Under the pieces are notes generated by a model. That model was not told where the DNA came from and did no database searches. It saw only the letters and a list, made by a program, of their open reading frames with translations. The translations under genes and the position numbers were made by a program. From the NCBI RefSeq assembly GCF_016741935.1, contig NZ_JAERRG010000002.1, forward strand, positions 186,001 through 250,000: a stretch of DNA of 64,000 bases. The letters are read 5' to 3'. Source of the DNA: Streptomyces endocoffeicus. Its GTDB lineage: Bacteria > Actinomycetota > Actinomycetes > Streptomycetales > Streptomycetaceae. Positions 8,752 to 64,000 of this stretch are shown one piece after another; the stretch's first letter is position 1; the number at the start of each line of letters is the position of its first letter.

Positions 8752-8779
8752 CGTTTTTCTAGAGAAAGGCTCCGCACCC

Positions 8780-14719: not shown

Positions 14720-17539
14720 ATGAATTCTTTGCCTGCGAACCTTTTCGAATGGGAGAACCACCTCTCCGCGCTGCGCGAAATGCTGCGCGGCGCGACGCAG
14801 GGCCGGGGTCGGCTGGCTCTTGTCAGCGGTGCGGTGGCCAGTGGCAAGACCACACTGCTGAACACCTTTGCCGAACAGGCCATCGAAAGCGGTGCGTTGC
14901 TCCTGGAAGCGACCGGTTCGCGGGCCGAGTGGGACCTTCCCTTCGGAATTGTCCGAAAGATTTTCGATAATGGTGCGATGCCCGCCGATGTGCGATCCGA
15001 AGTGATCGCGCTGCTTGACGGAAACGCGCTGGAAAGCACCGCCGCGGGACGCATGCACGTGATGTCCCAGATTTCCTCGGCGCTGCTGCGAATGGTCGAG
15101 GATCGCACACTTGTCGTCCTTGTCGACGATGTGCACTGCGGCGACGACCAGTCCCTGCAATTCCTGCTCCATCTGGCCCGGCGGGTGCGTCAGGCGAAGG
15201 TTCTCATCGTCCTCACCGAATCCCCCCGGCTTCGTCAGGAACAGTTCACCTTCCACGCCGAACTGCTCCGCCAGCCCAACTGTGTGCGCATGCGGCTGCA
15301 CATGCTCACCGAGTCGGGCGTCGCCGAGGCGCTGTCCGGCACCCTGTCCGCCACCGTCGCCGCCCGCCTCGCCCCCGAATGCCACCGCGTCTCCGGCGGC
15401 AACCCGCTGCTGCTGCGCGCCCTGCTGGAGGACTGGCGGACCGTCGGCGAGCACGGCGAGGCCCAGCAGCGTCCGGCGCCCGGCGAGGCGTTCGCCCACG
15501 CCGTCCTCGGCTGTCTGCACCGCGGCGAGCCCGAGGTGCTGGAGATCGCCCGCGGGGTCGCCGTCCTCGGCGACGCCCGCTCCCCGCGGCTGCTCGGCCA
15601 GCTCCTGGACCTGAGCGCCAACACGGTCCAGCAGGGCGTCCAGGACCTGCACCAGTGCGCCATCCTGGAGCACAACGCCTTCCGCGACGAGGTGGCCCGT
15701 ACCGCGGTGCTCGACGCGACCCCCGCCACCGCCCGCGGCGCACTGCACGCCCGTGCCGCCCGGCTGCTGCACGCCGACGGCGCCTCCGCGCTCGACGTGG
15801 CCCGCCAACTGGTCTCCGCCCGGCAGGACGCGGCGGCCTGGGCCGTCCCCGTTCTGCGCGAGGCCGCCGAATTCGCCCTGGTCGAGGAGGAGTTGGAGTT
15901 CGCGCTCCGCTGCCTCGAATGCGCCCACCACGCCTGCGCGCCCGGCCCCGTGCGCACCGCGCTCAAGGCCCGGCTGGTCAGCATCGCCTGGCGGATCGGC
16001 CCGGCCGCGGCCGAGAGCCATCTGCCGGAGCTCACCGAGGACGCCGAGCGGGGCCGGCTCGCCCCGCGCGACGTCGCCCCGATCACCTCGTACCTCGCCT
16101 GGTCGGGACGGCTGGACGCGGCGGCCGGCGCCGTCTCCGCGCTGGCCCGCTCGGCCGCCACCGGCGACGACCTCGCGATGACCGCCGCCGTCTCCGCCTC
16201 CGCCCAGTGGCTGACCATGCTCAGCCCGCCGCTGCGCGACCGCCTCCCCACCGTCGGGACCGGCGTCACCGGCGCCACCGCCGGAGCCCCGCGCGACATG
16301 GCCGACCTGGCCCACGCCCACGCCGCCGCCACCATGTCCGCCGTGCTCACCGAGGGCCAGGCCGACCGTGCCGTCATCGAGGCCGAGCGGGTGCTGCAGC
16401 GCTACCACCTGAGCGACAGCACCCTCCAGCCACTGGTCGTCGCGCTGATGGCACTCGTCCTGGCCGGCCGGCTCGACCTCGCGCTCTCCTGGTGCGAGCG
16501 GCTGCAGGGCGAATGCTCCGCCCGCCGCGTCCCCACCTGGCAGGCGCTGCTGTCCGCCGTACGGGCCGAAATCGCGCTGCGCCAGGGCGATCTGCAGGTC
16601 GCCGCGCACCAGGCGCGCACCGCGATGTCGCGGATCTCCGTCCAGGGCTGGGGTGTGGGGCTGGGACTGCCGCTGTCCACCCTGATCCAGGCCGAGACCG
16701 GGATGGGCCACTACGACGAGGCCATGGCGCTGCTCGAACAGCCCCTGCCCGAGGAGCTCTTCCAGACCCTCCCCGGGCTGTTCTACCTGCGCGCCAGAGG
16801 CCGCTGCCACCTGGCCACCGGCCGCTACCACGCCGCGCTCGGCGACTTCACGGCCGCCGGTGAGCTGATGGGCACCTGGCGGATGGACATCCCCCTGCTG
16901 TCCCCCTGGCGGCTGGACGCCGCCGAGACCTGGCTGGCCCTCGGCGACCCGGGGCGCGCCCGCGCGCTGGCCGAGGAGCAGCTGCGGCTGGGCTCGGAGG
17001 ACGCCCGGCTGCGCGGCGCCCTGCTGGTCGTGCTCGCCCGCACCGACGAGCTCAAGCGCCGGGTGCCCCGGCTCAAGGAGGCCGTGGAGATCCTGGAGAG
17101 TGGCGACGACCGCATCCAGCTGGCCGTCGCCCTCGGTGAACTCGGCCGTGCCTACCGTTCGCTGGGCGACTTCAACCGGGGCCGGGTGCTCGTCCGCAAG
17201 GCCTGGCACGTGGCCAAGACCTGCGGCGCCGATCCGCTCTGCCGTGAGCTGATGCCCCGCCACGCGGACCCCGGCGAGTTCGCCGCGGCGGCCGCCGCCC
17301 AGCCGGGCGGCCAGGGGACCGAGGCGCAGCGCGAGGTGGAGGCGCTGACCGAGGCGGAGGTGCGGATCGCGGTGCTGGCCGCGCACGGCAACACCAACCG
17401 GGAGATCGCCTCCAAGCTGTTCGTCACCGTCAGCACGGTGGAGCAGCATCTGACCCGCATCTACCGCAAGCTGAACGTCAAGCGCCGCCGCGACCTCCCC
17501 GCGAAGCTCTCCGACAGCAGCCTCACGGAAACGGTGTAG
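14720..17539 (+). CDS. LAL-family (large ATP-binding LuxR) transcriptional regulator
   Basis: This 939-aa protein has the full LAL layout: an N-terminal P-loop NTPase with Walker A GAVASGKTT at about residues 37-45 and Walker B LVVLVDDVH at about 131-139, a long TPR-like helical middle, and a C-terminal LuxR-type helix-turn-helix (LTEAEVRIAVLAAHG to STVEQHLTRIYRKLNVKRR) at about residues 870-930. LAL proteins are usually pathway-specific activators of macrolide and polyene clusters (PikD, RapH, NysRI types). The ATG at 14720 sits directly against GGGGG, so a TTG at 14729, 8 bp from that tract, is a credible alternative start. It ends 7 bp from the convergent response regulator gene. Confidence 0.93.
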   Translation: MNSLPANLFEWENHLSALREMLRGATQGRGRLALVSGAVASGKTTLLNTFAEQAIESGALLLEATGSRAEWDLPFGIVRKIFDNGAMPADVRSEVIALLDGNALESTAAGRMHVMSQISSALLRMVEDRTLVVLVDDVHCGDDQSLQFLLHLARRVRQAKVLIVLTESPRLRQEQFTFHAELLRQPNCVRMRLHMLTESGVAEALSGTLSATVAARLAPECHRVSGGNPLLLRALLEDWRTVGEHGEAQQRPAPGEAFAHAVLGCLHRGEPEVLEIARGVAVLGDARSPRLLGQLLDLSANTVQQGVQDLHQCAILEHNAFRDEVARTAVLDATPATARGALHARAARLLHADGASALDVARQLVSARQDAAAWAVPVLREAAEFALVEEELEFALRCLECAHHACAPGPVRTALKARLVSIAWRIGPAAAESHLPELTEDAERGRLAPRDVAPITSYLAWSGRLDAAAGAVSALARSAATGDDLAMTAAVSASAQWLTMLSPPLRDRLPTVGTGVTGATAGAPRDMADLAHAHAAATMSAVLTEGQADRAVIEAERVLQRYHLSDSTLQPLVVALMALVLAGRLDLALSWCERLQGECSARRVPTWQALLSAVRAEIALRQGDLQVAAHQARTAMSRISVQGWGVGLGLPLSTLIQAETGMGHYDEAMALLEQPLPEELFQTLPGLFYLRARGRCHLATGRYHAALGDFTAAGELMGTWRMDIPLLSPWRLDAAETWLALGDPGRARALAEEQLRLGSEDARLRGALLVVLARTDELKRRVPRLKEAVEILESGDDRIQLAVALGELGRAYRSLGDFNRGRVLVRKAWHVAKTCGADPLCRELMPRHADPGEFAAAAAAQPGGQGTEAQREVEALTEAEVRIAVLAAHGNTNREIASKLFVTVSTVEQHLTRIYRKLNVKRRRDLPAKLSDSSLTETV

Positions 17540-17546
17540 AGGGCGC

Positions 17547-18197
17547 TCAGTTCAACAGGCCGTGTTCCATCGCCTTCATCACGGCGGCCGTGCGGTCGGA
17601 CACACCGAGCTTCTTGAATGAGCGCAGCAGATGCGTCTTGACCGTGGCCTCGCTGACGAACAGCTCGGCGCCGATCTCGGCGTTGGTCAGCCCCCGGCCG
17701 ACCAGCCGCAGCACCTCGCGCTCCCGGCCGGAGAGCGGGGACGGCTCGGGGGCGCGGGTGCGGAAGAGCTTGCCCGCGAGGGACGGGGTGAGCACGGTCT
17801 CGCCACGCGCCGCGGTCTGCACCGCGTCGATCAGCTCCTGGCGTGAACTGCCCTTCAGCAGATAGCCCGCGGCGCCCGCCTCCACCGCGCGCAGGATGTC
17901 GGAGTCGTCCTCGTACGTGGTCACGATGACCACCTTGCAGCTCGGCACCTGGCGCAGGATCTGCCCGGTGGCCTCGACCCCGTCCATCCCGCCCATGCGC
18001 AGATCCAGCAGGGTGATGTCCGGCCGCAGCGCGACCGCCTGGACCACCGCCTCCTCACCGGAACCGGCCTGCCCGACCACCGTGATCCCCTCGGCGGAGT
18101 CCAGCATGGCGCTCAGCCCCTCCCGCACCACGGGATGGTCGTCGGCCAGCAGGACCCTGATCGGGCTGCTCGCGCCGCCCGGCGTACCCTCAGCCAC
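17547..18197 (-). CDS. NarL/FixJ-family response regulator
   Basis: This 216-aa protein has a receiver domain (residues about 13-130) with acidic pocket Asp19/Asp20, phospho-acceptor Asp65 in LLDLRM and conserved lysine in GYLLKG, then a LuxR-type helix-turn-helix (SGREREVLRLVGRGLTNAEI to TVKTHLLRSFKKLGV). It starts with GTG, overlaps the upstream sensor kinase gene by 8 bp and is certainly its partner. The position inside the cluster's regulatory block suggests control of the cluster or of the neighbouring membrane genes. Confidence 0.94.
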   Translation of the reverse strand: MAEGTPGGASSPIRVLLADDHPVVREGLSAMLDSAEGITVVGQAGSGEEAVVQAVALRPDITLLDLRMGGMDGVEATGQILRQVPSCKVVIVTTYEDDSDILRAVEAGAAGYLLKGSSRQELIDAVQTAARGETVLTPSLAGKLFRTRAPEPSPLSGREREVLRLVGRGLTNAEIGAELFVSEATVKTHLLRSFKKLGVSDRTAAVMKAMEHGLLN

Positions 18198-19434
18198 GCA
18201 ACGCCTCCTCGGCCGGTGCCGTCATCGGCACGCTCACCTCCACGGTGGTGCCCCGTCCGGGGCCGCTGGTGACGGTCGCCACCCCGTCGATCTCCTCGAC
18301 CCGGGCCTGCATACCGCGCAGCCCGTAGCCTTCCTGGGTGCCGTCCGGGGTGAACCCCTCGCCGTCGTCGCGGACCAGCAGTTGGACGCCGCCCTCGTCG
18401 AAGACCACGATCACATCGACCGTACGGGCCTGTTTGGCGTGCTTGCGCACATTGGCGATGGCCTCCTGCACCGTACGCAGCAGCACCACGCTCACCGCCA
18501 TCGGCAGCGACTTCTCCTCGCCCATCACCGAACACCGCACCTCCAGGCCGGTCTCGGCGATCAGCCCCTCCGCCTGCCGCCGCACCGCCTGGGACAGCGA
18601 ACCGCCGCGCAGCGCGGGCGGGGTGAGGGCGGCCACGAAGCCACGGGCCTCGGCGAGCGACTCCTTGGCCACCCGCCCGGCCAGCGACAGATGGTTCACC
18701 GCCTGGTCCGGGGCCTCGCGCACCTCCGACTCGGCCGCCTGCACCAGGCTGATGATGCTGGTCAGGCCCTGCGCCAGAGTGTCGTGGATCTCCCGGGCCA
18801 GCCGCTCGCGCTCGGCCGAGATACCGGCCTCGTGGGAGAGCCGGGCCACCCGCTCCCGGCTTTGTTGCAGCTCCTCGATGAGCTGCCCGCGCCCCTTGCT
18901 CTGGCGCACCACCCGCTTGATCCACATCCCCAGCAGCACCGACAGCGCGATGCTCAGCAGTGAGATGGGCAGTACGCCCAGGACGCTCAGCCCCAGGTCC
19001 TCACCGGTGAACGCCACCACCAGCACGGGGCAGAGATTGGCCGCCGTGGCCAGCACCACCGCCGAGGCCATCGGCAGGCTCATGATCAGCATCGGGATGA
19101 CCGCGAACAGCGCGAACGCGCCGACGAGGTTGAACGCCGTGGTGAGACAGAACAACGTCACCAGGCCCGCCGCGAAGACCAGGTTCCGCGGGCCGTAGGT
19201 GTCCTCGATCATCAGCGTCCGGCCGACCGCCGCGTACCAGGGCACGGTGAGGGTCAGCGCGGCGATCGGGATGGAGTGGTTGACCTGCGAGCCGCCGGAG
19301 AGGAAGAGCAGGACCGCGGTCACGAGATAGGAGACGGCGAAGAAGCCGTCCCACAGGCCGAACCAGCGGGTGCCGGACTCGGGACCGTAGTACGCCCCGG
19401 TCTGCGAGCCGTCCCCCGGAGAGTGATTGCGCAC
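18190..19434 (-). CDS. Two-component sensor histidine kinase (HisKA_3/DesK-NarX type)
   Basis: This 414-aa kinase has about six membrane segments within residues 25-172 and almost no extracellular domain, so it may sense within the membrane. A short coiled coil (residues about 178-205) leads to the dimerisation/phospho-acceptor helix with His217 in LAREIHDTLAQGL, and the HATPase domain has its N-box (NVRKHAKQ) and G-boxes (RDDGEGF, GYGLRGM). It starts with GTG at 19434, is translationally coupled to the response regulator, and is divergent from the membrane-protein gene at 19603. No sensor ligand can be inferred. Confidence 0.93.
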   Translation of the reverse strand: MRNHSPGDGSQTGAYYGPESGTRWFGLWDGFFAVSYLVTAVLLFLSGGSQVNHSIPIAALTLTVPWYAAVGRTLMIEDTYGPRNLVFAAGLVTLFCLTTAFNLVGAFALFAVIPMLIMSLPMASAVVLATAANLCPVLVVAFTGEDLGLSVLGVLPISLLSIALSVLLGMWIKRVVRQSKGRGQLIEELQQSRERVARLSHEAGISAERERLAREIHDTLAQGLTSIISLVQAAESEVREAPDQAVNHLSLAGRVAKESLAEARGFVAALTPPALRGGSLSQAVRRQAEGLIAETGLEVRCSVMGEEKSLPMAVSVVLLRTVQEAIANVRKHAKQARTVDVIVVFDEGGVQLLVRDDGEGFTPDGTQEGYGLRGMQARVEEIDGVATVTSGPGRGTTVEVSVPMTAPAEEALRG

Positions 19435-20247: not shown

Positions 20248-20748
20248 GTGGAAAGCCATGACAATCTGAGGCTCCGACCGCCTCGGCACCGGGTCGACCG
20301 CCGTGCGATCGGCTGGTGGACGCTGCAGTCCGCACTCTTCGCCCTGCCCTTGCCGCTCGTCTTCGGGATCCTGTGGGCCTCCATTCCCCCCACACGTGAG
20401 TTCTTCATGTGGGCCACGCTGATCTCGCTGGTCCCCGGACTGCTCTACATGGCCGTCATGCCGGCCTGGCGGTACCGGGTCCACCGCTGGGAGGCCACCG
20501 ACGACGCGGTCTACGCGGCCTCCGGCTGGCTCTGGCAGCAGTGGCGGGTCGTGCCGCTGTCCCGGGTCCAGACGGTGGACACCCTGCGCGGCCCGCTGCA
20601 GCAGATGTTCGGGCTCTCCGGAGTCACCGTGACCACCGCCTCCGCCGCGGGCGCGGTGAAGATCAAGGGCATCGACCACAAGCTCGCCGGGGACCTGGTG
20701 GAGCACCTGGCCAAGTACACCCAGGCCGTGCCGGGAGACGCCACATGA
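20248..20748 (+). CDS. Bacterial PH-domain (bPH2, YdbS-like) membrane protein
   Basis: This 166-aa protein has two membrane helices (residues about 27-45 and 52-70) and then a single bPH2 (DUF304) domain, seen in VHRWEATDDAVYAASGWLWQQ, VPLSRVQTVDTLRGPLQQMFG and LSGVTVTTASAAG. It starts with GTG after GCAGGGTGAAG, and its stop overlaps the next gene's start (ATGA at 20745-20748). YdbS/YdbT pairs in Bacillus belong to the sigma-W regulon and contribute to intrinsic resistance to antimicrobial compounds, so a self-protection role next to this PKS is conceivable but unproven. Confidence 0.87.
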   Translation: MESHDNLRLRPPRHRVDRRAIGWWTLQSALFALPLPLVFGILWASIPPTREFFMWATLISLVPGLLYMAVMPAWRYRVHRWEATDDAVYAASGWLWQQWRVVPLSRVQTVDTLRGPLQQMFGLSGVTVTTASAAGAVKIKGIDHKLAGDLVEHLAKYTQAVPGDAT

Positions 20749-22292
20749 GCTCCGAGACCACCGTGCGGCCGGACCTAGACGCGGCCGGCCGCGACTGGGG
20801 GCGGCTCAACGGGCGGCTGCTCCTGGTCAACTTCTCCATCCTCGCCGCGCCGGTGGCCATGTTCCTGGCCAGCCTCGCGGTCACCGGAGGCGACACCAAC
20901 CTCCAGGTCATCATCACCCTCGGCTCGCTGTTCGTGACCTTCCTGGTCATCAGCGGCATCGGGCTGATGCGGCTGTTCACCACCCGCTACCGGCTCACCG
21001 AGGACCGCTTCGAGCTCCACACCGGACTGCTCTTCCGCAGCGAGCGCTCGGTCCCGATCGGCCGCATCCGCGGTGTCGACCTCACCGCCAACCCGGTCCA
21101 CCGCGTCTTCGGCCTCACCACGCTGCGCATCGACAGCGGGGACCAGAGCGACGCCGCCGCCCGCAGGCTCGCCCTTGACGGCATCACCAAGGCCGAGGCC
21201 GTGGAGCTGCGCCGCCAGATCATCGCCCTGCGCGACGCGGGCCGGGCCCGGCCGGTGGCCGACAGCGACGGTGTGCTCAGCCGGCTGGACTGGTCCTGGC
21301 TGCGCTACGGCCCGCTGACCGTATGGGGCGTGGGCGGTGTCTTCATCGCCGCCGCCAGTACCTACCGCACCCTGAGCGAACTCCAGGTCAACCCGCTGGA
21401 CCTCGGCGTCGTCAAGGACCTCGAGGACCGCTTCGGCACCATTCCGCTCTGGTACGGAATCCTGCTGGCCGCCGTCGTCATCGTCGTCCTCGGCATGCTC
21501 GGCTCCACCGCCACCTACATCGAGAACTGGGCCGGCTACGAACTGCGCCGCGAGGACGGCGGAATCCTCCGCATCCGCCGCGGACTGCTGGCCACCCGGT
21601 CCGTGAGCATCGAGGAGCGCCATCTGCGCGGCCTCGAACTCGTCGAACCCGTCCCGCTGCGCTGGGCCAAGGGCGCCAAACTCAACGCCGTGGCCAGCGG
21701 CCTGGGCAACCAGGAGGACAACCGCAGGCGCCGCGGACTGACCCCGCCCGCCCCGCGCGACGAGGCCATGCGGGTCGCCGCCCAGGCGCTGCCGACCGGC
21801 CCCGGGCTGATCGAGCGCAAGGGCCTCCTCCCGCACCCCAAGGCGGCCCTGCGGCGCCGGATCAACCGCGCCCTCATGTGGTCGGTCCTGATCGCGGCCG
21901 TCCCGGTGGGCCTGGGCCTGTGGCTGGGCCGGTGGCTCGTCATCACCGGCGTGATCACCGGTGTGCTGCTGGTTCCGGCCCTGGTGGCGTTCGCCTTCAG
22001 CGCCTACCACAGCCTGGGCCACCTGCTGCGCGGCCGCTTCCTGGTGATGTGCTCCGGGGCGTTCGCCCGCCGCACCGTCGCCCTCCAGCGCGACGGGGTC
22101 ATCGGCTGGAAGCTCTCCCGGACGCCCTTCCAGCGCCGGGCCGGGCTGATCACCCTCGGCGCCACCACCGCCGCGGGCGAAGGCGTCTACCACGTGCACG
22201 ACCTGACCGAAGGCCAGGGGATCGCCCTCGCCGAGACCGCGGTACCGGGGCTGCTGGCCCCGTTCATCGAGAGAGCCCCCGACCGCGGCTGA
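20745..22292 (+). CDS. Multi-domain bPH2 (YdbT-like) membrane protein
   Basis: This 515-aa protein has three bPH2 repeats separated by pairs of membrane helices. The repeats begin near YRLTEDRFELHTGLLFRSER (residues about 80-160), YELRREDGGILRIRRGLLAT (about 265-340) and FLVMCSGAFARRTVALQRDG (about 430-500). It is translationally coupled to the single-domain partner, as in ydbST operons. No enzyme motif is present; it probably forms a membrane complex with the partner. A hairpin terminator follows. Confidence 0.87.
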   Translation: MSSETTVRPDLDAAGRDWGRLNGRLLLVNFSILAAPVAMFLASLAVTGGDTNLQVIITLGSLFVTFLVISGIGLMRLFTTRYRLTEDRFELHTGLLFRSERSVPIGRIRGVDLTANPVHRVFGLTTLRIDSGDQSDAAARRLALDGITKAEAVELRRQIIALRDAGRARPVADSDGVLSRLDWSWLRYGPLTVWGVGGVFIAAASTYRTLSELQVNPLDLGVVKDLEDRFGTIPLWYGILLAAVVIVVLGMLGSTATYIENWAGYELRREDGGILRIRRGLLATRSVSIEERHLRGLELVEPVPLRWAKGAKLNAVASGLGNQEDNRRRRGLTPPAPRDEAMRVAAQALPTGPGLIERKGLLPHPKAALRRRINRALMWSVLIAAVPVGLGLWLGRWLVITGVITGVLLVPALVAFAFSAYHSLGHLLRGRFLVMCSGAFARRTVALQRDGVIGWKLSRTPFQRRAGLITLGATTAAGEGVYHVHDLTEGQGIALAETAVPGLLAPFIERAPDRG

Positions 22293-22362: not shown

Positions 22363-22623
22363 GAACCCCTCCAGCCCTGGGCCCCTCCATCTCCGAAAAA
22401 TTGAATACTGGGCGCATTATTTGCTTGAGATCCTTGTGGCCGCCGGAATTCTCATGCACTCTGGTGAATTAACGATGGCCATTGCCCGATGCCCCTCGGA
22501 TACGGGACCCCAAAGGGATGATAGGGGTCCATAGGGGGTTTGAAGGGGTTTCTGGTCGCCCTGCCCTGTGTAAAGCTGACGTACGGTCTTGGTGTTATGT
22601 CTGCGAGGGTAATGGGGCGCGCG
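22363..22623 (+). promoter_or_regulatory. PKS1 upstream control region with TAGGGG direct repeats
   Basis: This non-coding stretch of about 260 bp is distinctly more AT-rich than the flanking genes around 22398-22470. It holds two direct TAGGGG half-sites at 22522-22527 and 22532-22537 (10-bp spacing) and the inverted repeat GGACCCC/GGGGTCC at 22505-22511 and 22524-22530. The same half-site occurs three times upstream of the thioesterase gene. I could not settle a -10/-35 pair; TGTAAA at 22569-22574 is one weak candidate. An open frame reaches back to a TTG at 22540 but has no coding character before 22624. Confidence 0.5.
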
Positions 22624-25600
22624 ATGGTGAGTGAGTCCGTGGATTTCACGCCCGAGCACACCGAAAAGGGGGGCACGAGCCCGGAAGGGGCGTCCCCGTG
22701 GCGTGACCGGCTCGCCGCACTCCCCGAGGCCGAGCGCGCCGAGGCCCTCACCGCCTGGGTCGGCGAGATCGTCGAACAGGCCCTCAAGGACAAGGCGCCG
22801 GACCTCCTCGACCCCGAGCGTCCCTTCCTCGACCTGGGCTTCGACTCCCTCGCCACGGTCGATCTGCACGCCCGGCTGACCGCCGCCACCGGACTGCGGC
22901 TGCCGGTCACCCTCGCCTTCGACCACCCCACCCCCGCCGACCTCGCCCGCCATGTGCGGGCCGAACTGCTCGGTGCGGACGACGATTCCGACGCTTCCCG
23001 GGCCGACGCCGAAATGGGCGCGATAGCCGCCGACGAGCCCATCGCCATTGTCGGAATGAGCTGCCGGTTCCCCGGTGACGCCGGGTCCCCCGAAGAACTG
23101 TGGGAAATCGTCGCGGGCGGAAAAGACGTCATCTCCGAATTCCCGGTGAGCCGGGGCTGGGATCTCGCCGGACTTTACGACCCCGACCCGGACCGGCCGG
23201 GCAGCAGCTATACCCGCGAAGGCGGATTCCTGCACGACGCCGCCGAGTTCGATCCGGCGTTCTTCGGAATCTCCCCGCGCGAGGCGCTCGCGATGGATCC
23301 GCAGCAGCGGCTGCTGCTGGAGACCTCCTGGGAGGTCTTCGAACGCGCCGGTATCGACCCCGCGATCCTCCGGGGCGGCCGGACCGGTGTGTTCGTCGGC
23401 GCCGAGACCCAGGACTACGGACCTCGGCTGCACGAGGCCGAGCAGGGCTTCGAGGGCTATCTGGTCACCGGCAACGCCGCCAGCGTCGCCTCCGGCCGCA
23501 TCGCCTACACCTTCGGCTTCGAAGGCCCCACCGTCACCGTCGACACCGCCTGCTCCTCCTCCCTGGTGGCGCTCCATCTGGCCGTCCAGGCGCTGCGCGC
23601 GGGCGAGTGCGCCATGGCCCTCGCCGGTGGCGCCGCGGTCATGGCCAACCCCGGCTCGTTCATCGCCTTCAGCCGCCAGCGCGGCCTCGCCCCCGACGGC
23701 CGCTGCAAGCCGTTCGCCGCCGCGGCCGACGGCACCGCCTGGGGCGAGGGCGTCGGCATGCTGCTCGTCGAGCGGCTCTCGGAGGCCCGGAAGAACGGCC
23801 ACCGGGTCCTCGCCGTCGTCCGCGGCACCGCCATCAACCAGGACGGTGCCAGCAATGGCCTCACCGCCCCCAGCGGCCCCGCCCAGCAGCGCGTCATCCG
23901 CCAGGCCCTCGCCAACGCCGGACTGACGGCCGGCGAGGTCGACACGGTCGAGGCCCACGGCACGGGTACGACGCTCGGCGACCCGATCGAGGCCCAGGCG
24001 CTGCTCGCCACCTACGGCCGGGACCGCGAGGCGGACCGGCCGCTGTGGCTCGGCTCGCTCAAGTCCAACATCGGCCACACCCAGTCCGCGGCCGGTGTCG
24101 GCGGCATCATCAAGATGGTCATGGCGATGCGCCACGGGGTGCTGCCGCGGACGCTGCACGTGGACGAGCCGACCCCGCATGTCGACTGGTCCGCCGGTGA
24201 CATCGAGCTGCTGACCGAGGCACGGCCCTGGCCGGAGGGCGACCGCCCGCGCCGCGCGGGCATCTCGTCGTTCGGCATGAGCGGCACGAACGCGCACGCC
24301 ATCATCGAGCAGCCGCCGGTCGAGGACCGCGACGGAGCGGACGGTCCCGATGGTGCGGGGGGTCCTGATGGTGCCGACGGTCCTGGTGAGGAGAAGCCAC
24401 GGGGCACCGCCCTGCTGCCCTGGACCCTTTCCGCGAAGACCGCCGACGCCCTCCAGGGCCAGGCCGAGCGGCTGCACGCGCTGCTGGAGACCGACCCCGG
24501 CCTCGCCCTCACCGACATCGGCCACTCCCTGGCCACCACCCGCGCCACCTTCGAACAGCGCGCCGTGCTCCTCGCCGGTGACCGCGACGGCTTCCGCTCC
24601 GCCCTGCGCACCCTCGCCGACGGCGGCGACGGGCCGTCCGTCGTGCGCGGCGCCCCCGCCGCCGGAAAGCTCGCCCTGCTGTTCACCGGGCAGGGCAGCC
24701 AGCGCCTCGGCATGGGCCGCGAGCTCCACGCCGCCCACCCCGTCTTCGCCGAAGCCCTCGACGACGCCTGCTGGTACCTCGAGGAGCAGCTCGAACTCCC
24801 GCTCCTCGACGTGCTCTTCGCCGAGGAAGGCAGTCCCGAGGCCGCCCTCCTCGACCGCACCGACTACACCCAGCCCGCCCTGTTCGCCATCGAGGTCGCG
24901 CTCTACCGCCTCCTTGAGTCCTGGGGACTGCGCCCCGAACTGCTCGCCGGACACTCCATCGGCGAGCTCGCGGCCGCCCATGTGGCGGGTGTGCTGTCCC
25001 TGGAGGACGCCGCCGCCCTGGTCGCCGCCCGTGGTCGGTTGATGCGGGAACTTCCGGCCGGTGGCGCGATGATCGCGGTGCAGGCGTCGGAGGACGAGGT
25101 GCTGCCGCTGCTCGCCGGGCGCGAGGACCGGATCGGCATCGCCGCGATCAACGGCCCCCACTCCGTCGTCATCTCCGGCGCCGAGGAGGACGCGCTGGAG
25201 ATCGCTTCTGTTTTTGAGGCGCGGGGCCGCAAGACCAAGCGGCTCACCGTCAGCCACGCGTTCCACTCCCCGCTGATGGACGGCATGCTCGCCGAATTCC
25301 GGCGCGTCGCCCAGGTGCTGGAGTACGCACCGCCACGCATCCCCGTGGTCTCCACCGTCACCGGGCGCGTCGCCACCGCCGAAGAGCTGTGCTCACCCGA
25401 GTACTGGGTGCGCCATGTCCGCGAGGCCGTCCGCTTCCTCGACGGTGTGCACACGCTGGCCGACAAGGGCGCCACCACCTTCCTGGAGCTCGGCCCCGAC
25501 GCCGTGCTCACCGCCATGGCCCAGGACTGTCTGCCCGACGCCGACGGCACCGCGTACGCCGCCGCGCTGCGCACCGGGCGACCCGAGGCCGAGACATTGA

Positions 25601-28600
25601 CGGCTGCCGTCGCGCTGGCGTACGTCCGGGGCAAGAAGGCCGACTGGGCCGCCCCGTACGCCACCACCGGCGCCCGCACGATCGACCTGCCCACCTACGC
25701 CTTCCAGCGTCAGCCCTACTGGCTCAACGCCCCGGCCCCGGCCGGACCGGCGACCGGGGCCGGGCCGGGCTCGGCGGTGGACGGCCGGTTCTGGGATGTG
25801 GTGGAGCGCGGGGATGTGGCCGCGTTGGCGGCGGAGCTCGCGGTGGATCCGGGGCTTTCGCTGGGTGAGGTGTTGCCCGCGTTGTCGTCGTGGCGGCGGC
25901 AGGAGTCGGTGCGTTCGGCGGTGGACGGCTGGCGTTACCGGGTGTCGTGGCAGCCGGTGTCGGATCGGTTGGTCACCGGGGTGCTGGGTGGCTGCTGGGT
26001 GGTTGTGGTGCCCGGCGGTGAGGCCGAGGGTGGCTGGGCCACGGGTGTGGTGCGGATGCTGGCCGGGCGTGGTGTGGATGTGCGCGTGGTCGCGTCGGAC
26101 GCGGTGGACCGTGCCGGGGTGGCGGAGGAGCTGCGTACGGCGGTGGGCGACGCCTCGGTGACGGGTGTGGTGTCGCTTCTCGCGGTGGGCGCGGGCGCGG
26201 GCGAGCGCGCGTCGGGGCTGTTGCGTACGGCTGCGTTGGTGCAGGCGTTGGGCGATGTGGGTGTGGGTGTGGGTGCGCGGTTGTGGGTGGCGACGCGGGG
26301 TGCGGTGTCGGTGGGGCGTTCGGATGGTGTGGTGGTGCCTGGTCAGGCGTTGGTGTGGGGGTTTGGTCGGGTGGCGGCGTTGGAGCTGCCGGAGCGGTGG
26401 GGTGGTCTGGTCGATCTGCCGGAGTCGGTGGATGAGCGTGCGCTGGGTCGGTTGGCGGGTGTGCTGGCCGGGGCCGGTGGTGAGGATCAGGTCGCGGTGC
26501 GCGGCTCGGGTGTCTTCGGGCGCCGGTTGACGGAGGCTTCCGGGACCCGGACGTCGGGCGACGAGGGCTGGCGGGCCTCGGGTTCGGTGCTGGTGACCGG
26601 TGGTACGGGTGCGCTGGGCGGGCATGTGGCGCGTTGGCTGGTGGAGAACGGTGCCGAGCATGTGGTGCTGACCAGCCGTCGTGGGCTCGACGCCCCGGGC
26701 GCGGTGGAGCTGCGGGATGGGCTGGTGGCTTCGGGTGCTCGGGTGACGGTTGCCGCGTGTGATGTGGCGGACCGGGACGCGCTCGCCGAGCTGCTGGCCG
26801 GGCTTCCGGCGGAGCTTCCGCTGACCGCCGTCGTGCATGCGGCCGGTGTGCTGGACGACGGCGTACTGGACTCGCTCACGCCCGAACGGTTCGCCTCGGT
26901 GCTCCGGGCGAAGGCCGACGCCGCGCTGTATCTGGACGAGCTGACGCGCGACCTGGACCTCTCGGCGTTCGTCCTCTTCTCCTCCATCACCGGGTCGGTG
27001 GGTGCGGCCGGTCAGGGCAACTACGCGGCGGCCAACGCCTACTTGGACGCGCTGGCCGAGCGGCGGCGCGCCCAGGGCTTGCCCGCCACCTCGATCGCCT
27101 GGGGCCCGTGGGCGGACTCCGGGATGGCCGGTGACGGCGCGATGGAGCGGCGGATGCGCCGCGAGGGCATGCCGCCGATGGCGCCCGAGTCGGCCGTCGC
27201 CGCGCTGCGGCAGGCGCTGGACCTGGATGACACCGCCGTGACGGTCGCGGACATCGACTGGGAGAGCTTCACCCGTACCCTCACCGCCGTACGGCCCAGC
27301 CCGCTGATCGCCGCGCTGGCGGCGGAGGCCGGGCCGCGCGCCGCGACCGGCGCCGACACCGTCAAGGTCGTCACCGACGCCGACGCCGACTCCGCCTCCC
27401 CGCTCGGCGAGCGCCTGAGCGGCCTGCCGAGGGCCGAACAGGACCGTGCGCTGCTGGAGTTGGTGCGTGCGCAGGTCGCGTCGGTGCTGGGGCACGGTGG
27501 GGCCGAGGCGGTGGAGGCCGGGCGCGCCTTCAAGGAGCTGGGCTTCGACTCGCTGGCCGCGATCGAACTGCGCAACCGGCTGAACGCGGCGACCGGCCTG
27601 CGCCTGGCCGCCACGCTCATCTACGACTACCCGAACGCCACCGCCCTCGCCGACCATCTGCGGACGGAGCTGGTGGGTGCGGATGCTGTGGCGGCGGGTG
27701 GCGTGGTGGCGCCTGCGGTCGTGGTGGCCGATGATCCGATCGCGATCGTGGCGATGAGCTGTCGTTTCCCGGGTGGGGTGCGGTCGCCGGAGGAGCTTTG
27801 GCAGCTGTTGACGGCCGGTGGGGATGCCATCGCGGAGTTTCCGTCGGACCGTGGTTGGGATCTGGCGGGGCTGTATGACCCGGATCCGGATCGTCAGGGG
27901 ACGTCGTATGCGCGTGAGGGTGGTTTCCTCTACGACGCCGGGGACTTCGACGCCTCGTTCTTCGGTATTTCGCCGCGTGAGGCCCTCGCGATGGATCCGC
28001 AGCAGCGGTTGCTGCTGGAGACCTCGTGGGAGGCGTTCGAGCGGGCCGGGATCGACCCGGGGGCGCTGCGCGGCAGCCGTACCGGTGTCTTCGCGGGCAC
28101 CAACGGCCAGGACTACACCGGGCTCGTTTCCACCCCTCCCGAGGGCCTGGAGGGCCACTTGGGCACGGGCAACGCGGCGAGCGTGGTGTCCGGGCGGGTG
28201 GCGTACACCTTCGGTCTCGAGGGCCCGGCGGTCACGGTGGACACGGCGTGTTCCTCGTCGCTGGTGGCCCTGCACATGGCCGTTCAGGCGCTGCGCGCGG
28301 GTGAGTGCACGATGGCGCTCGCGGGTGGCGTCACGGTGATGTCCACGCCGGAGGCGTTCGTCGACTTCAGCCGTCAGCGCGGGCTCGCGGAAGACGGCCG
28401 GATCAAGGCGTTCGCGGCCGGTGCGGATGGCACCGGCTGGGGCGAGGGCGCCGGGATGCTGCTGGTCGAGCGGCTGTCGGACGCGGAGCAGAACGGCCAC
28501 CCGGTGCTGGCCATCGTGCGGGGCAGCGCGATCAACCAGGACGGTGCGTCCAATGGCCTGACGGCGCCGAATGGCCCCTCGCAGCAGCGGGTGATCCGGC

Positions 28601-31600
28601 AGGCGCTGGCCGGAGCGGGGCTGTCGGCCGGGGATGTGGACGCGGTCGAGGCGCACGGTACGGGCACCACGCTGGGTGACCCGATCGAGGCGCAGGCGCT
28701 GCTGGCCACGTATGGGCAGGAGCGGGAGGCTGACCGGCCGTTGTGGCTGGGGTCCATCAAGTCCAACATCGGTCATACGCAGGCTGCTGCCGGTGTCGCG
28801 GGCATCATCAAGATGGTGCTGGCGATGCGGCACGGTGTGTTGCCGCAGACGTTGCACGTGGACGCGCCGTCACCGCATGTGGACTGGTCGGCGGGTGCCG
28901 TTTCACTGCTGACGGAGCGGGTGGAGTGGCCGGAGACGGGCCGTCCGCGCCGCGCGGGCGTGTCGTCCTTCGGGCTCAGCGGCACCAATGCCCACACCAT
29001 CATTGAGCAGGCCCCGGCCGTTTCGGCTGCCCTGACCGAGGAGCCCGCGCCGCGTGAGCTGACCGTGCTGCCGTGGCTGCTGTCGGCGAAGGACGGGCAG
29101 GCGCTGCACGCCCAGGCCGCGCAGCTGGCCACCCACCTCCGCACCCACCCCGAACTGAGCGCGACCGACCTCGCCTTCTCGCTCGCCACCAGCCGCGCCG
29201 CCCTGGAGCGGCGCGCGGCGCTCGTCACCACGGACCGCGAGACGTTCCTTGCGGGCCTGGACGCCCTGGCCCGGGGCGAGGCCACCCCGGATGTGGTCGA
29301 GGGGACGGTCGTTGAGGGCAAGTTGGCGTTCCTGTTCACGGGGCAGGGGAGTCAGCGGCTGGGGATGGGGCGTGAGCTGTATGACGCCTTCCCGGTGTTC
29401 GCGGATGCGTTGGATGAGGTGTGCGCGCATCTGGATCTGCATCTGGAGCGGCCGCTGCGGGACGTGCTGTTCGGGGAGGACGCGGCGGTACTGGATCGGA
29501 CGGGGTTCACTCAGCCCGCGTTGTTCGCGGTTGAGGTGGCGTTGTTCCGGCTGGTTTCGGAGGCGTGGGGTCTGCGGCCGGACTTCCTCTCCGGGCATTC
29601 GATCGGTGAGTTGGCCGCCGCGCATGTGGCGGGTGTGTTGTCGCTGGCGGACGCGGCGAAGTTGGTGGCGGCGCGTGGCCGTCTGATGCAGGAGCTTCCG
29701 GCCGGTGGCGCGATGGTCGCGGTGCAGGCGTCGGAGGACGAGGTGGCGCCGCTGCTGACCGAGCGGGTCAGCATTGCCGCGCTCAATGGCCCGTCGTCGG
29801 TGGTCATCGCCGGTGATGAGGACGCGGCGGCTGAGATCGCTGCCGGTTTCGAGGCGCGGGGTCGTAAGACCAAGCGGCTCACGGTCAGCCACGCGTTCCA
29901 CTCGCCGTGTATGGACGGCATGTTGGACGCCTTCCGCGAGGTGGCCGAGGGGCTGTCGTACGCGGCCCCGCGCATCCCTATCGTCTCCAACCTCACCGGT
30001 GGCGTGGTGTCCGCCGAGGAGATCACGACCGCCGACTTCTGGGTGCGCCACGTTCGCGAGGCGGTCCGTTTCCTCGATGGTGTGCGGACGCTGGAAGCGG
30101 AGGGTGTGACGACCTTCGTCGAGCTCGGCCCCGATGGCGTTCTCTCCGCGATGGCGCAGGAGTGTGTGACCGGCGAGGACGCCGCGTTCGCCGCCGCGCT
30201 GCGGAAGGGCCGTGCCGAGGCCGAGTCGGTGACCGCCGCGCTCGCCCTGCTGCATGTCCGGGGCCAGTCCCCGGACTGGGGCGGCTGCTTCGAGGGCAGC
30301 GGGGCCCGGCGGGTCGAGCTGCCGACGTACGCCTTCCAGCGGACGCGGTACTGGTGGGAGGAGGCCCCGGCGGCGTCGGAGGTCGCGCCGGGCGGTGCCG
30401 TCGATGGGCGGTTCTGGGATGTGGTGGAGCGCGGGGATGTGGCCGCGCTGGCGGCGGAGCTCGCGGTGGATCCGGGGCTTTCGCTGGGTGAGGTGTTGCC
30501 CGCGCTGTCGTCGTGGCGGCGGCGGGAGTCGGTGCGTTCGGCGGTGGACGGCTGGCGTTACCGGGTGTCGTGGCGGCCGGTGACGGAGCGGTTGGCCACC
30601 GGGGTGCTGGGTGGCTGCTGGCTGGTGGTCGTCCCGGCGGACGAGGCCGAGGGCGTGTGGGCCACGGGTGTGGTGCGGATGCTGGCCGGGCGTGGCGTCG
30701 ATGTGCGCGTGGTCGAGTCGGACGCGGTGGACCGTGCCGGGGTGGCGGAGGAGCTGCGTACGGCGGTCGTGGGCGGTTCGGTGGCGGGGGTGTTCTCCCT
30801 GCTGGCGGTCGACTCCGCGTCGTCCGGTCTGTTGCGTACGGCTGCGTTGGTGCAGGCGTTGGGTGATGTGGGTGTGGGTGCGCGGTTGTGGGTGGCGACG
30901 CGGGGTGCGGTGTCGGTGGGGCGTTCGGATGGTGTGGTGGTGCCTGGTCAGGCGTTGGTGTGGGGGTTTGGTCGGGTGGCGGCGTTGGAGCTGCCGGAGC
31001 GGTGGGGTGGTCTGGTCGATCTGCCGGAGTCGATGGATGAGCGTGCGCTGGGACGGTTGGCGGGTGTGCTGGCCGGGGCCGGGGCCGGGGCTGGTGGCTC
31101 GGGTGAGGACCAGGTCGCGGTGCGGGCCTCGGGTGTCTTCGGGCGCCGGCTGACGGAGGCTTCCGGGACCCGGACATCGGGCGACGAGGGCTGGCGAGCG
31201 TCCGGTTCGGTGCTGGTGACGGGCGGTACGGGTGCGCTGGGCGCGCATGTGGCGCGCTGGCTGGTGGAGAACGGTGCCGAGCATGTGGTGCTGACCAGCC
31301 GCCGGGGGCTCGACGCCCCGGGCGCGGCGGAGTTGCGCGATGAGCTGGCCGTTTCGGGTGCTCGGGTGACGGTTGCCGCGTGTGATGTGGCGGACCGGGA
31401 CGCGCTCGCCGAGCTGCTGGCGTCCATACCGGCCGAACTCCCGCTGACCGCCGTCGTGCATGCGGCCGGTGTGCTGGACGACGGCCTGGTGGACACGCTG
31501 GACGCCGAGCGCCTGGAGCGGGTGGTGCGCGCCAAGGCCACCTCCGCGCAGAACCTCCATGAGCTGACCCGCGAGCTGGACCTTTCCGCGTTCGTTCTGT

Positions 31601-34600
31601 TCTCCTCGCTCGCCGGGTCGGTGGGCGCGGCCGGTCAGGGCAACTACGCGGCCGCCAACGCCTACTTGGACGCGCTGGCCGAGCTGCGCCGCGCCCAGGG
31701 CTTGCCCGCCACCTCGATCGCCTGGGGCCCGTGGGCCGAGGGCGGCATGGCCGCTGACGAGGCGCTGGAGCGCCGGATGCGCCGCGACGGAGTGCCGCCG
31801 ATGGCGCCCGAGTCCGCGCTCACCGCGCTGCGGCAGGCGCTGGACCTCGATGACACCGCCGTCACGGTCGCGGACCTCGACTGGGACCGGTTCCTCGCCG
31901 AGTTCACCGCCGTACGGCCGAGCGCGCTGTTCGGCGAGGTGCGGGCCGCGCGTCCGGCGCCCGCTGCCGAGGGCGCGCCGCGCCCGGCCGCCACCGCCGG
32001 GACCGGCACTCTCGCGGAGCGGCTGTCCGCGCTGACGGAGAACGAGCGCGCACAGACGCTGCTGGAGTTGGTGCGTGCGCAGGTCGCGTCGGTGCTGGGG
32101 CACGGTGGGGCCGAGGCGGTGGAGGCCGGGCGCGCCTTCAAGGAGCTGGGCTTCGACTCGCTCACCGCCGTCGAACTCCGCAACCGGCTCAACGCGGCGA
32201 CCGGCCTGCGGCTGCCCGCCACGCTCATCTACGACTACCCCAACGCCACCACCCTGGCCGACCATCTGCGTGCTGAACTGCTGGGCGCGGATGCTGCGGC
32301 GGCGGGTGGCGTGGTGGCGCCTGCGGTCGCGGTGGCCGACGATCCGATCGCGATCGTGGCGATGAGCTGTCGTTTCCCGGGTGGGGTGCGGTCGCCGGAG
32401 GAGCTTTGGCAGCTGTTGACGGCTGGTGGGGATGCCATCGCGGAGTTTCCGTCGGACCGTGGTTGGGATCTGGCGGGGCTGTATGACCCGGATCCGGATC
32501 GTCAGGGGACGTCGTATGCGCGTGAGGGTGGTTTCCTCTACGACGCCGGGGACTTCGACGCCTCGTTCTTCGGGATTTCGCCGCGTGAGGCCCTCGCGAT
32601 GGATCCGCAGCAGCGGTTGCTGCTGGAGACCTCGTGGGAGGCGTTCGAGCGCGCGGGCATCGACCCGGGGGCGCTGCGCGGTCAGCAGATCGGTGTCTTC
32701 GCCGGGACCAACGGCCAGGACTATCTGTCGCTGCTGATGCAGGCGCCTGAGGGCCTGGAGGGCCATCTGGGCACGGGCAACGCGGCGAGCGTGGTGTCCG
32801 GGCGGGTGGCGTACACCTTCGGGCTCGAGGGCCCGGCGGTCACGGTCGACACGGCCTGCTCGTCCTCGCTGGTGGCACTGCATCTGGCGGTGCAGGCGCT
32901 GCGGCAGGGCGAGTGCACGATGGCGCTCGCGGGCGGCGTCACGGTGATGTCCACTCCCGAGAACTTCATCGACTTCAGCCGTCAGCGCGGACTGGCCGCC
33001 GATGGCCGGATCAAGGCGTTCGCGGCCGGTGCGGATGGCACGGGCTGGGGCGAGGGCGCGGGCATGCTGCTGGTCGAGCGGCTGTCGGACGCGCGGCGCA
33101 ACGGCCACCCGGTGCTGGCGGTGGTCCGGGGCTCCGCCATCAACCAGGACGGTGCGTCGAACGGCCTCACGGCGCCGAACGGGCCGTCCCAGCAGCGCGT
33201 CATCCGGCAGGCGCTGACCAGCGCCGGGCTGACGACCGGCGATGTCGATGTCGTCGAGGCGCATGGCACGGGGACGACGCTGGGTGACCCGATCGAGGCG
33301 CAGGCGCTGCTCGCGACGTATGGGCAGGAGCGGGAGGCTGACCGGCCGTTGTGGCTGGGGTCCATCAAGTCCAACATCGGTCATACGCAGGCGGCGGCGG
33401 GTGTCGCGGGCATCATCAAGATGGTGCTGGCGATGCGGCACGGTGTGTTGCCGCAGACGTTGCACGTGGACGCTCCGTCACCGCATGTGGACTGGTCGGC
33501 GGGGGCCGTTTCGCTGCTGAGCGAGCAGGTGGAGTGGCCGGAGACGGGCCGTCCGCGCCGCGCCGGTGTGTCGTCGTTCGGCATCAGCGGCACCAACGCG
33601 CACACCATCATCGAGCAGGCGCCGGCGGTCGACGCACCGGCCGAGGCACCCGAGGGGAATGGCCTCGGCGGCCTGCTGCCGTTCGCCCTGTCGGCCAAGA
33701 ACGCCGAAGCGCTGCGGGAGCAGGCCGCGCGGCTGCACACCCACATCGCGTCGCGGCCCGAGTCGGCGCCGCTCGACGTCGCCCACGCCCTGGCCGTCGG
33801 CCGCGCCGCCCTGGAGCGGCGTGCGGTGCTGACCATCGGCGACCGGGACGAGCTGCTGCGGACACTCGACGCGCTGGCCCGGGGCGAGGCCGTCCCGGGT
33901 GTGGTCGAGGGGACGGTCGCTGAGGGCAAGTTGGCGTTCCTGTTCACGGGGCAGGGAAGTCAGCGGCTGGGGATGGGGCGTGAGCTGTATGACGCCTATC
34001 CGGTGTTCGCGGATGCGTTGGATGAGGTGTGTGCGCATCTGGATCTTTACCTTGAGCGGCCGTTGCGGGATGTGCTGTTCGGGGATGACGCGGCGGTACT
34101 GGATCGGACGGGGTTCACTCAGCCCGCGTTGTTCGCGGTTGAGGTGGCGTTGTTCCGGCTGGTTTCGGAGGCGTGGGGTCTGCGGCCCGACTTCCTCTCC
34201 GGGCACTCCATCGGTGAGCTGGCTGCCGCGCATGTGGCGGGTGTGCTCTCGCTCGCGGACGCGTGCGCGCTGGTGGCGGCTCGTGGGCGGTTGATGCAGG
34301 AGCTTCCGGCCGGTGGCGCGATGATCGCCGTCCAGGCGTCCGAGGACGAGGTGGCGCCGCTGCTGACCGAGCGCGTGTCCATCGCCGCCCTCAACGGTCC
34401 GACCTCCGTGGTCATCGCGGGTGATGAGGACGCGGCGGCTGGGATCGCGGCGGGCTTCGAGGCGCAGGGTCGTAAGACCAAGCGGCTCACCGTGAGCCAC
34501 GCGTTCCACTCGCCGCGTATGGACGGCATGCTGGACGCGTTCCGCGAGGTGGCCGAGGGGCTGTCGTACGTGGCCCCGCGCATCCCGATCGTCTCCAACC

Positions 34601-47477: not shown

Positions 47478-57947
<10,470 letters not shown>

Positions 57948-63900: not shown

Positions 63901-64000
63901 GCCGGGATCGACCCGGACTCGATACGCGGCCGCTCGGTCGGCGTGTTCGTGGGCGCGGCCTACAGCGGCTACGACGCGGGTCTGGAGCAGGCCGGTTCGG
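57973..64000 (+). CDS. Modular type I PKS, module 8 and start of module 9 (PKS3, partial)
   Basis: The frame from the ATG at 57973 (GGAG 6 bp upstream) stays open to the window edge, giving 2,009 residues of an incomplete protein. An N-terminal docking helix ([20 protein letters not shown]) matches acceptance from PKS2. Module 8 is KS-AT-DH-KR-ACP and is followed by a second KS, so the protein has at least two modules. The AT is malonyl-type (GHSIGE, HAFH). Confidence 0.93.
58075..63498 (+). other. PKS module 8: KS-AT-DH-KR-ACP with altered DH and KR motifs
   Basis: KS active site [12 protein letters not shown]; malonyl AT. The DH (60750-61590) has His (cac at 60865) and [10 protein letters not shown] but reads [10 protein letters not shown], with Asp at the motif glycine. 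The KR (62420-63100) has LDD and Tyr but alanine at the catalytic serine position (LFSAIAG, codon 62824). These are the same two positions altered in module 3. Predicted output is an alkene if both domains work, or a ketone if the KR is dead. Confidence 0.85.
62068..62223 (+). repeat. Degenerating tandem repeat in the module 8 KR structural subdomain
   Basis: Three 18-bp units encode AEAAGT (62068, 62086 and 62104; the first two identical), then decay through related units into a 9-bp GCCGGGACC-type run encoding AGT repeats up to about 62215. All remain in frame, in a loop after FVLVDVNE. Confidence 0.92.
63580..64000 (+). other. PKS module 9: KS domain, 5-prime part only
   Basis: KS opening motif [15 protein letters not shown], then [23 protein letters not shown]; the window ends before the active-site cysteine. 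The segment after FPVNRNWES departs from the consensus seen in modules 1-8 ([19 protein letters not shown]), so this KS belongs to a slightly different subgroup. Confidence 0.85.

Follow-up and report, generated by a model that had tools for sequence, protein, structure and literature searches.

A giant polyketide synthase of Streptomyces endocoffeicus that opens with a solitary acyl carrier protein very probably takes an arginine-derived 4-guanidinobutyryl starter

The stretch of DNA analysed here (the window: 64,000 nucleotides, C111:186001-250000) comes from a Streptomyces endocoffeicus genome (G000) of 13.1 Mb in 268 contigs. It carries a polyketide synthase (PKS) whose first protein, PKS1, begins with an acyl carrier protein (ACP), which raises the question of which starter this ACP receives and from which enzyme. 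Our analysis points with high confidence to a linear polyene cluster of the clethramycin/mediomycin type, in which the solitary ACP would be loaded with arginine-derived 4-guanidinobutyryl by way of a ligase and a VinK-family acyltransferase (AT). Architecture, enzyme families, gene neighbourhood, conservation and predicted composition are read from the sequence in hand; the identity of the substrate, the catalytic steps and the product are carried over by inference from published homologous systems. In this way a guess made from the window becomes a named pathway, that of an antifungal linear polyene with an arginine-derived starter. The features are collected in Table 1, where positions without a contig prefix refer to the window. 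The gene lists were made with a simple ORF script based on GC frame rather than with a gene finder, and some of the listed ORFs are spurious.

Table 1. Features of the cluster within and beyond the window.
Feature	Location	Strand	Basis
LAL-type LuxR regulator	14720..17539	+	Pfam
Response regulator, kept upstream of PKS1	17547..18197	-	domain search, relatives' gene order
Histidine kinase, kept upstream of PKS1	18190..19434	-	domain search, relatives' gene order
bPH-domain protein, kept upstream of PKS1 in 6/6 relatives examined	20745..22292	+	domain search, relatives' gene order
PKS1: loading ACP and modules 1-5 (KR, KR, DH-KR, KR, KR; all AT malonyl, HAFH)	22540..47430 (ORF)	+	ORF list, domain scan, motifs
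Solitary N-terminal loading ACP of PKS1	22720..22959	+	domain scan, motif, best PDB sequence match, signature scan
KS of module 1, active (DTACSS, not KSQ)	23032..24306 (residues 165-589)	+	domain scan and motif
PKS2, modules 6-7: DH-KR, KR	47478..57947	+	ORF list, domain scan
PKS3, modules 8-12: DH-KR, KR, DH-KR, KR, DH-KR	57973..64000, on to C111:269991	+	domain scan
PKS4, module 13: KR	C111:270056-275110		
PKS5: KR, DH-KR, DH-KR			
PKS6: four DH-KR			
PKS7: KR, KR			
PKS8: DH-KR, DH-ER-KR, DH-KR			
PKS9: DH-KR, DH-KR			
Discrete AT	C111:358938-359897	-	VinK family (VinK_C)
AMP-dependent ligase	C111:363394-364803	+	PF00501
ArgMO-like flavin amine oxidase	C111:364882-366660	-	PDB sequence matches
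Sulfotransferase	C111:369972-371090	+	PF13469 E 9e-20

The domain scan gives the order ACP-KS-AT-KR-ACP at the front of PKS1. The loading ACP spans PKS1 residues 61-140 and has the motif LGFDSL, with the phosphopantetheine serine codon at 22846-22848 and a helix-II signature, DSLATVDLH, that ends at 22869. The PKS1 ORF contains in-frame start codons at 22597-22627, and because all 12 orthologues share the block MGR[AV]M[VMK]SES, the true start is likely to lie there. Only about 30-40 residues then stand ahead of the loading ACP, which therefore leaves no space for an AT, a KSQ or a ligase. The original prediction that PKS1 opens with one ACP lacking a loading AT, KSQ or ligase is confirmed on both counts, the ACP being followed directly by an active KS. 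No earlier PKS protein, the alternative that had been named, appears ahead of PKS1: a six-frame profile search of the 62.5 kb upstream (C111:146001-208500), with profiles built from this PKS and the PKS itself as positive control, found neither KS nor ACP.

Judged by sequence, the PKS1 loading ACP is distinct from other ACPs. Together with its flanks (135 aa) it finds a dedicated orthologue in the genomes of 12 of 14 relatives, at 62-96% identity and 142-269 bits, and the next best ACPs in these genomes reach at most 94 bits among the matches listed, usually at 41-54% identity and in a short stretch at up to 64%. Against itself the query scores 282 bits, and the next best ACP of its genome scores 90 bits. 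The 20 matches listed from a plasmid collection searched with the ACP stretch are only partial PKS matches, at ~68-73% identity. The best PDB sequence match is 8h6s_C, which we take to be the VinP1 loading ACP, by the narrow margin of 75.6 bits to 73.6 bits for the next entry.

Upstream of PKS1 the LAL regulator, the two-component pair, the bPH protein and a small membrane protein (assigned by eye) follow one another in the same order in all six relatives examined, and the LAL regulator is the probable upstream edge of the cluster. Pfam gave no match for four of nine upstream window ORFs tried. Still further upstream, outside the cluster, window positions 5936-10276 hold inositol-catabolism-type genes (KduI/IolB family, TPP enzyme, aldehyde dehydrogenase); in the relatives G006 and G009, too, the TPP enzyme and the aldehyde dehydrogenase lie on the upstream side of PKS1.

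The starter genes are outside the window, at least 109 kb beyond its end. After PKS9 the order is AT, ABC exporter pair, type II thioesterase, ligase, ArgMO-like enzyme, LAL regulator and sulfotransferase, with the AT beginning 6.5 kb after the last PKS gene. The AT matches PF21124 (VinK_C) with E 1.2e-27 and 96.6 bits, against a curated cut-off of 27, and aligns over its GPSFG serine and PAVHAPAF histidine with PDB entry 5czc (E 2e-95), presumably VinK. The separate acyltransferase that the original prediction had called for thus has a counterpart, by sequence, in this discrete VinK-family AT past PKS9. The ArgMO-like protein matches a PDB L-amino acid oxidase/monooxygenase with E 1.6e-217 and tryptophan 2-monooxygenase with E 1.5e-60; it is assigned as ArgMO at the family level, and the genome has a second copy, 63% identical, on contig C45. 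The ligase, likewise assigned at the family level, has a single close homologue elsewhere in the genome, next to an azalomycin-like cluster and 62% identical, the others reaching no more than 36% among the matches listed. The gamma-amino route had been expected to show itself past position 64,000 through a monooxygenase, an amidohydrolase, a ligase and a trans-AT: the trans-AT, the ligase and the ArgMO-type enzyme do lie there, within C111:358938-366660, but the amidohydrolase is not in the cluster.

The three genes are conserved as a set. A search of genome contigs with the AT returned 15 loci, of which 13 combine AT, ligase and ArgMO; in the exceptions, L027 and L028, the AT is 49-50% identical, the ligase match reaches only 28-29% and there is no ArgMO match. 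The searches of relatives' genomes cover the genomes of 14 of the 15 loci (L016 left out), and the loading-ACP orthologue is present in the 12 genomes with the cassette and absent from the two without it (L027, L028).

According to the domain scan, the assembly line comprises nine PKS proteins and 27 modules over C111:208.6-352.4 kb (the last PKS gene ends at C111:352431), with a thioesterase motif close to the C-terminus of PKS9 and a single ER, in module 24 (PKS8). The early modules had been called all-malonyl and KR-only. The first statement is right for all five PKS1 modules, each with HAFH, and the second for modules 1, 2, 4 and 5, whereas module 3 contains a DH as well. The motif YASH is found only in modules 13, 21, 22 and 27; we take HAFH to denote malonyl and YASH methylmalonyl specificity. 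Two domains are clearly inactive as judged from their motifs: KR13, where the catalytic tyrosine is replaced by glutamine (GNQAPGN), and DH12, which has HGP instead of YGP and DGALQ instead of the DxxxH motif. A ketone is predicted at the position of module 13 (PKS4). DH8 retains its histidine, aspartate and YGP, the LPFxW stretch being all that is missing, and the KRs of modules 3, 8, 12, 22 and 23, counted as active in the composition, lack the usual serine at what we assume to be its catalytic place. With a 4-guanidinobutyryl starter and with 14 of 16 DH, 26 of 27 KR and the ER active, the predicted composition is C63H99N3O15 ([M+H]+ 1138.71; sulfated [M+Na]+ 1240.65). Desulfoclethramycin has a published ion of 1138.8 and clethramycin one of 1240.8, and those of the mediomycins are 1096.8 and 1198.8 (PMC5704753). 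The composition derived from the domains fits the published clethramycin masses, as a consistency check and not as a blind prediction, the calls of DH8 as inactive and of the serine-less KRs as active having been made with the published mass known.

The organisation is that of the cle and med clusters, for which 27 modules on nine subunits and a sulfotransferase at the flank are described (PMC5704753). The present cluster resembles cle of Streptomyces malaysiensis DSM4137 and med of S. mediocidicus / Kitasatospora mediocidica in its nine PKS proteins and 27 extension modules, in a sulfotransferase at one edge (compared by way of the published description and matched here at the family level), in a predicted composition that agrees with the published masses, and in that no amidinohydrolase was found in the cluster. 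It differs from cle of DSM4137, where six lantibiotic-type genes are interpolated at a place that the description leaves unnamed (PMC5704753), in having an ATP-grasp/methyltransferase RiPP pair between PKS9 and the AT. The mediomycin-assigned cluster t1pks-2 of Streptomyces sp. N11-34 / S. hygroscopicus likewise has nine proteins, begins with an ACP and follows the same module-for-module order, but the table for N11-34 shows no ER where module 24 (PKS8) has one here (PMC8880029). A loading ACP, a dedicated AT and a CoA ligase are also shared with azalomycin F and the marginolactone protein AzlA1, for which the starter is 4-guanidinobutyryl (PMC5082578); unlike the linear polyenes, azalomycin F is cyclic, and a cluster of its type is present separately in this genome. 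Neotetrafibricin of S. rubrisoli Inha501 differs in its genes for guanidine removal and rhamnosylation, whereas C111 has no arginase-family gene. The system is of a kind already described.

Hong et al. 2013 are said to have described a guanidinobutanoate starter. In published systems the route leads from arginine monooxygenase through 4-guanidinobutyramide hydrolase, CoA ligase and dedicated AT to the loading ACP (PMC5082578, PMC10322714). Because of the set of starter genes, the clethramycin/mediomycin organisation and the fit of the composition, the starter here is very probably 4-guanidinobutyryl from arginine. The flavin monooxygenase would convert L-arginine to 4-guanidinobutyramide, an amidohydrolase encoded elsewhere would give 4-guanidinobutyrate, and the cluster AMP-ligase would turn this into the CoA ester. 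The loading ACP, probably recognised through its distinct helix II, would then receive the acyl group from the discrete VinK-family AT. KS1 would accept the starter and the 27 modules would extend it to a C63 product, to be sulfated later.

VinK_C has three matches in the genome, on C111, C1 and C221. The C1 locus (G000:C1:889829-985000) is a giant PKS locus of azalomycin-like type, where an ACP-first PKS is accompanied by an AT, a ligase and a nitrilase-fold hydrolase of its own. Its PKS protein has the order ACP-KS-AT-DH-ER-KR-ACP, with ligase and AT adjoining; the published table lists this domain set for the starter protein of azalomycin (PMC8880029); the C1 AT was read from family-search coordinates. 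The C221 locus (G000:C221:20003-37949) is vicenistatin-like: beside an ACP-first PKS it encodes two adenylating enzymes and a PLP decarboxylase, as well as an alpha/beta-hydrolase that shares a single open frame of 784 aa with the VinK-type AT, possibly as a fusion.

Could the C111 ACP instead receive a beta-amino acid starter of the macrolactam type, which a VinK-type AT would pass on in dipeptide form from a stand-alone ACP? The C111 AT does belong to the family shared with vicenistatin VinK/VinP1, and its loading ACP slightly favours 8h6s_C, with which it has VDLH in common. However, the published account gives macrolactam clusters five shared enzymes including a stand-alone ACP, and in vicenistatin VinK takes the dipeptidyl beta-amino starter from such an ACP, VinL (PMC11284099). 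None was found by profile search in the six frames of the 57.6 kb past the PKS (C111:352432-410000), nor did the C221 PLP decarboxylase have a match at E 1e-5 in 264 kb around the C111 PKS. The only matches of the C221 adenylating enzymes near this PKS, at 25-26% identity, are the cluster ligase and an AMP-ligase gene that lies 52 kb upstream of PKS1. The C111 cluster has an ArgMO-type flavoenzyme, and its AT is 57.8% identical to the azalomycin-type AT of C1 compared with 44.6% to the vicenistatin-like AT of C221. The macrolactam route, which the original prediction had set out for checking, is not supported for this PKS and is extremely improbable; a vicenistatin-like cassette of that kind is found inside the same genome at the C221 locus. 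An amino- or guanidinoalkyl polyol end, which it had considered the likelier outcome, is supported by sequence, with the guanidino route favoured and the class that of clethramycin/mediomycin. A simple acyl-CoA such as acetyl or malonyl, loaded by a general AT onto a degenerate loading module, is scarcely credible: the AT is FabD-like in scoring 64.6 bits against TIGR00128, but this is far under the fabD cut-off of 260.9, whereas VinK_C is over its own. All 12 orthologues keep the active serine and the signature of the loading ACP, 13 of 15 AT loci have the starter enzymes linked, and no loading AT for simple acyl-CoA was found.

Two further alternatives concern the amine. Mediomycins end in a primary amine, which would suit direct loading of 4-aminobutyryl itself, but this amine arises by late deamidination of clethramycin and not from a 4-aminobutyryl starter (PMC5704753); with an ArgMO-like enzyme in the cluster and no arginase-family gene on C111, such a starter is highly improbable. 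It is conceivable, though unlikely, that the same starter and PKS lead to mediomycin as final product through an amidinohydrolase encoded elsewhere in the genome. The deamidinating enzyme of S. mediocidicus is 670 kb from its cluster (PMC5704753), and three arginase-family genes do occur in this genome (on C89, C1 and C227). However, arginase-family genes are common, the same search being positive in 9 of 14 control genomes, and sequence alone cannot separate cle from med clusters according to the authors of the comparison (PMC5704753).

How the AT might recognise its ACP is suggested by helix II. After the serine and one further residue, loading ACPs read A-x-V-[DNE]-L-H in 14 of 14 cases (the PKS1 ACP, that of C1 and the 12 orthologues), as does that of C221. 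Extension ACPs have arginine where the loading ACPs have histidine (15/15 on C1 and 27/27 on C111). The chain 8h6s_C also shows VDLH, and the entry 8h6s contains an AT as well. VinK touches its carrier VinL at helix II, which is negatively charged there (PMC6164871), and this makes helix II a plausible recognition site for the AT on the loading ACP.

A degenerate DNA pattern for the signature has three matches in the 13.1 Mb genome, which are exactly the three ACP-first PKSs, and the reversed control pattern has none there. In the 14 relatives there are 19 matches: 12 are the cle orthologues, and the 7 others each lie no more than ~9 kb from a VinK_C match. Since the three own loading ACPs and the 12 orthologues had served to define V-[DNE]-L-H, matches on these follow by construction; its real tests are the absence of other matches and the 7 further matches in relatives. 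The counts of signature and VinK_C agree in 10 of 14 relatives, one VinK_C being unpartnered in each of G008, G009, G013 and G014, and the totals in 15 genomes are 22 signature ACPs and 26 VinK-type ATs. For genome mining, a short DNA signature thus picked only ACP-first loading domains in this genome. A literature search, with the main VinK structural papers outside it, found no statement of the V-[DNE]-L-H rule, and newness is not claimed.

The remaining step of the 4-guanidinobutyryl pathway is the amidohydrolase. The genome has 14 CN_hydrolase matches, none of them on C111 and none in the 264 kb around the PKS; the pathway requires a 4-guanidinobutyramide hydrolase, not its linkage to the cluster. 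One candidate lies on C1, ~8 kb from the azalomycin-like AT. Another is on C45, where it adjoins the second ArgMO (G000:C45:35364-37925, with a nitrilase-fold hydrolase beside the 63% homologue and, across the 20 kb covered, no ORF of PKS size). In 6 of 14 relatives there is a hydrolase with at least 92% identity to that of C1, always within ~9 kb of a VinK_C match, and a 46-49% homologue is present in 14 of 14. The three more distant relatives G010, G011 and G012, with a single VinK_C match each, have a further 40-42% homologue 9-10 kb upstream of the loading ACP and ~1.1 kb from the LAL gene, with one ORF between; this nitrilase-fold hydrolase is nearer the C45 type (49-50%) than the C1 type. 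No hydrolase upstream of PKS1 was found in G002, G006 or G009. In the simplest reading, the cluster's own hydrolase was lost in this clade or gained in G010, G011 and G012.

The hydrolase step is perhaps supplied here by the azalomycin-type cluster or by the stand-alone monooxygenase-hydrolase pair. The linear-polyene cluster would then have lost its own amidohydrolase while retaining the arginine monooxygenase, the azalomycin-type cluster would have kept the amidohydrolase without a monooxygenase, and each would lean on the other or on the stand-alone pair. The azalomycin cluster as published has a hydrolase and a ligase but no ArgMO (PMC5082578), which fits such sharing. G005, G006 and G009 have only the 48-49% hydrolase type, and dependence on an azalomycin cluster is therefore not general. 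The azalomycin cluster placed in S. lividans required fed 4-guanidinobutyramide (PMC5082578). Part of a starter pathway can sit in a different cluster, which matters for heterologous expression, and for genome mining it is a warning that the starter pathway may be partly encoded in another cluster. We hold the joint proposal, that the pathway is split between two arginine-primed giant clusters of this Streptomyces clade and that V-[DNE]-L-H marks most loading ACPs paired with a VinK-type AT, only tentatively, at somewhat below even confidence.

The interval between PKS9 and the AT, here C111:352432-358937, is a variable insertion site. It was compared in 12 of the 13 cle-type loci in addition to our own (in L019, left out, the PKS9 end is not on the contig), and its length ranges from ~80 bp to 9.5 kb in the 12 loci and is 6.5 kb here. 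Both this genome and S. violaceusniger NBRC 13459 (L018:10958-19715) have at this site an ATP-grasp/methyltransferase RiPP pair together with a candidate precursor.
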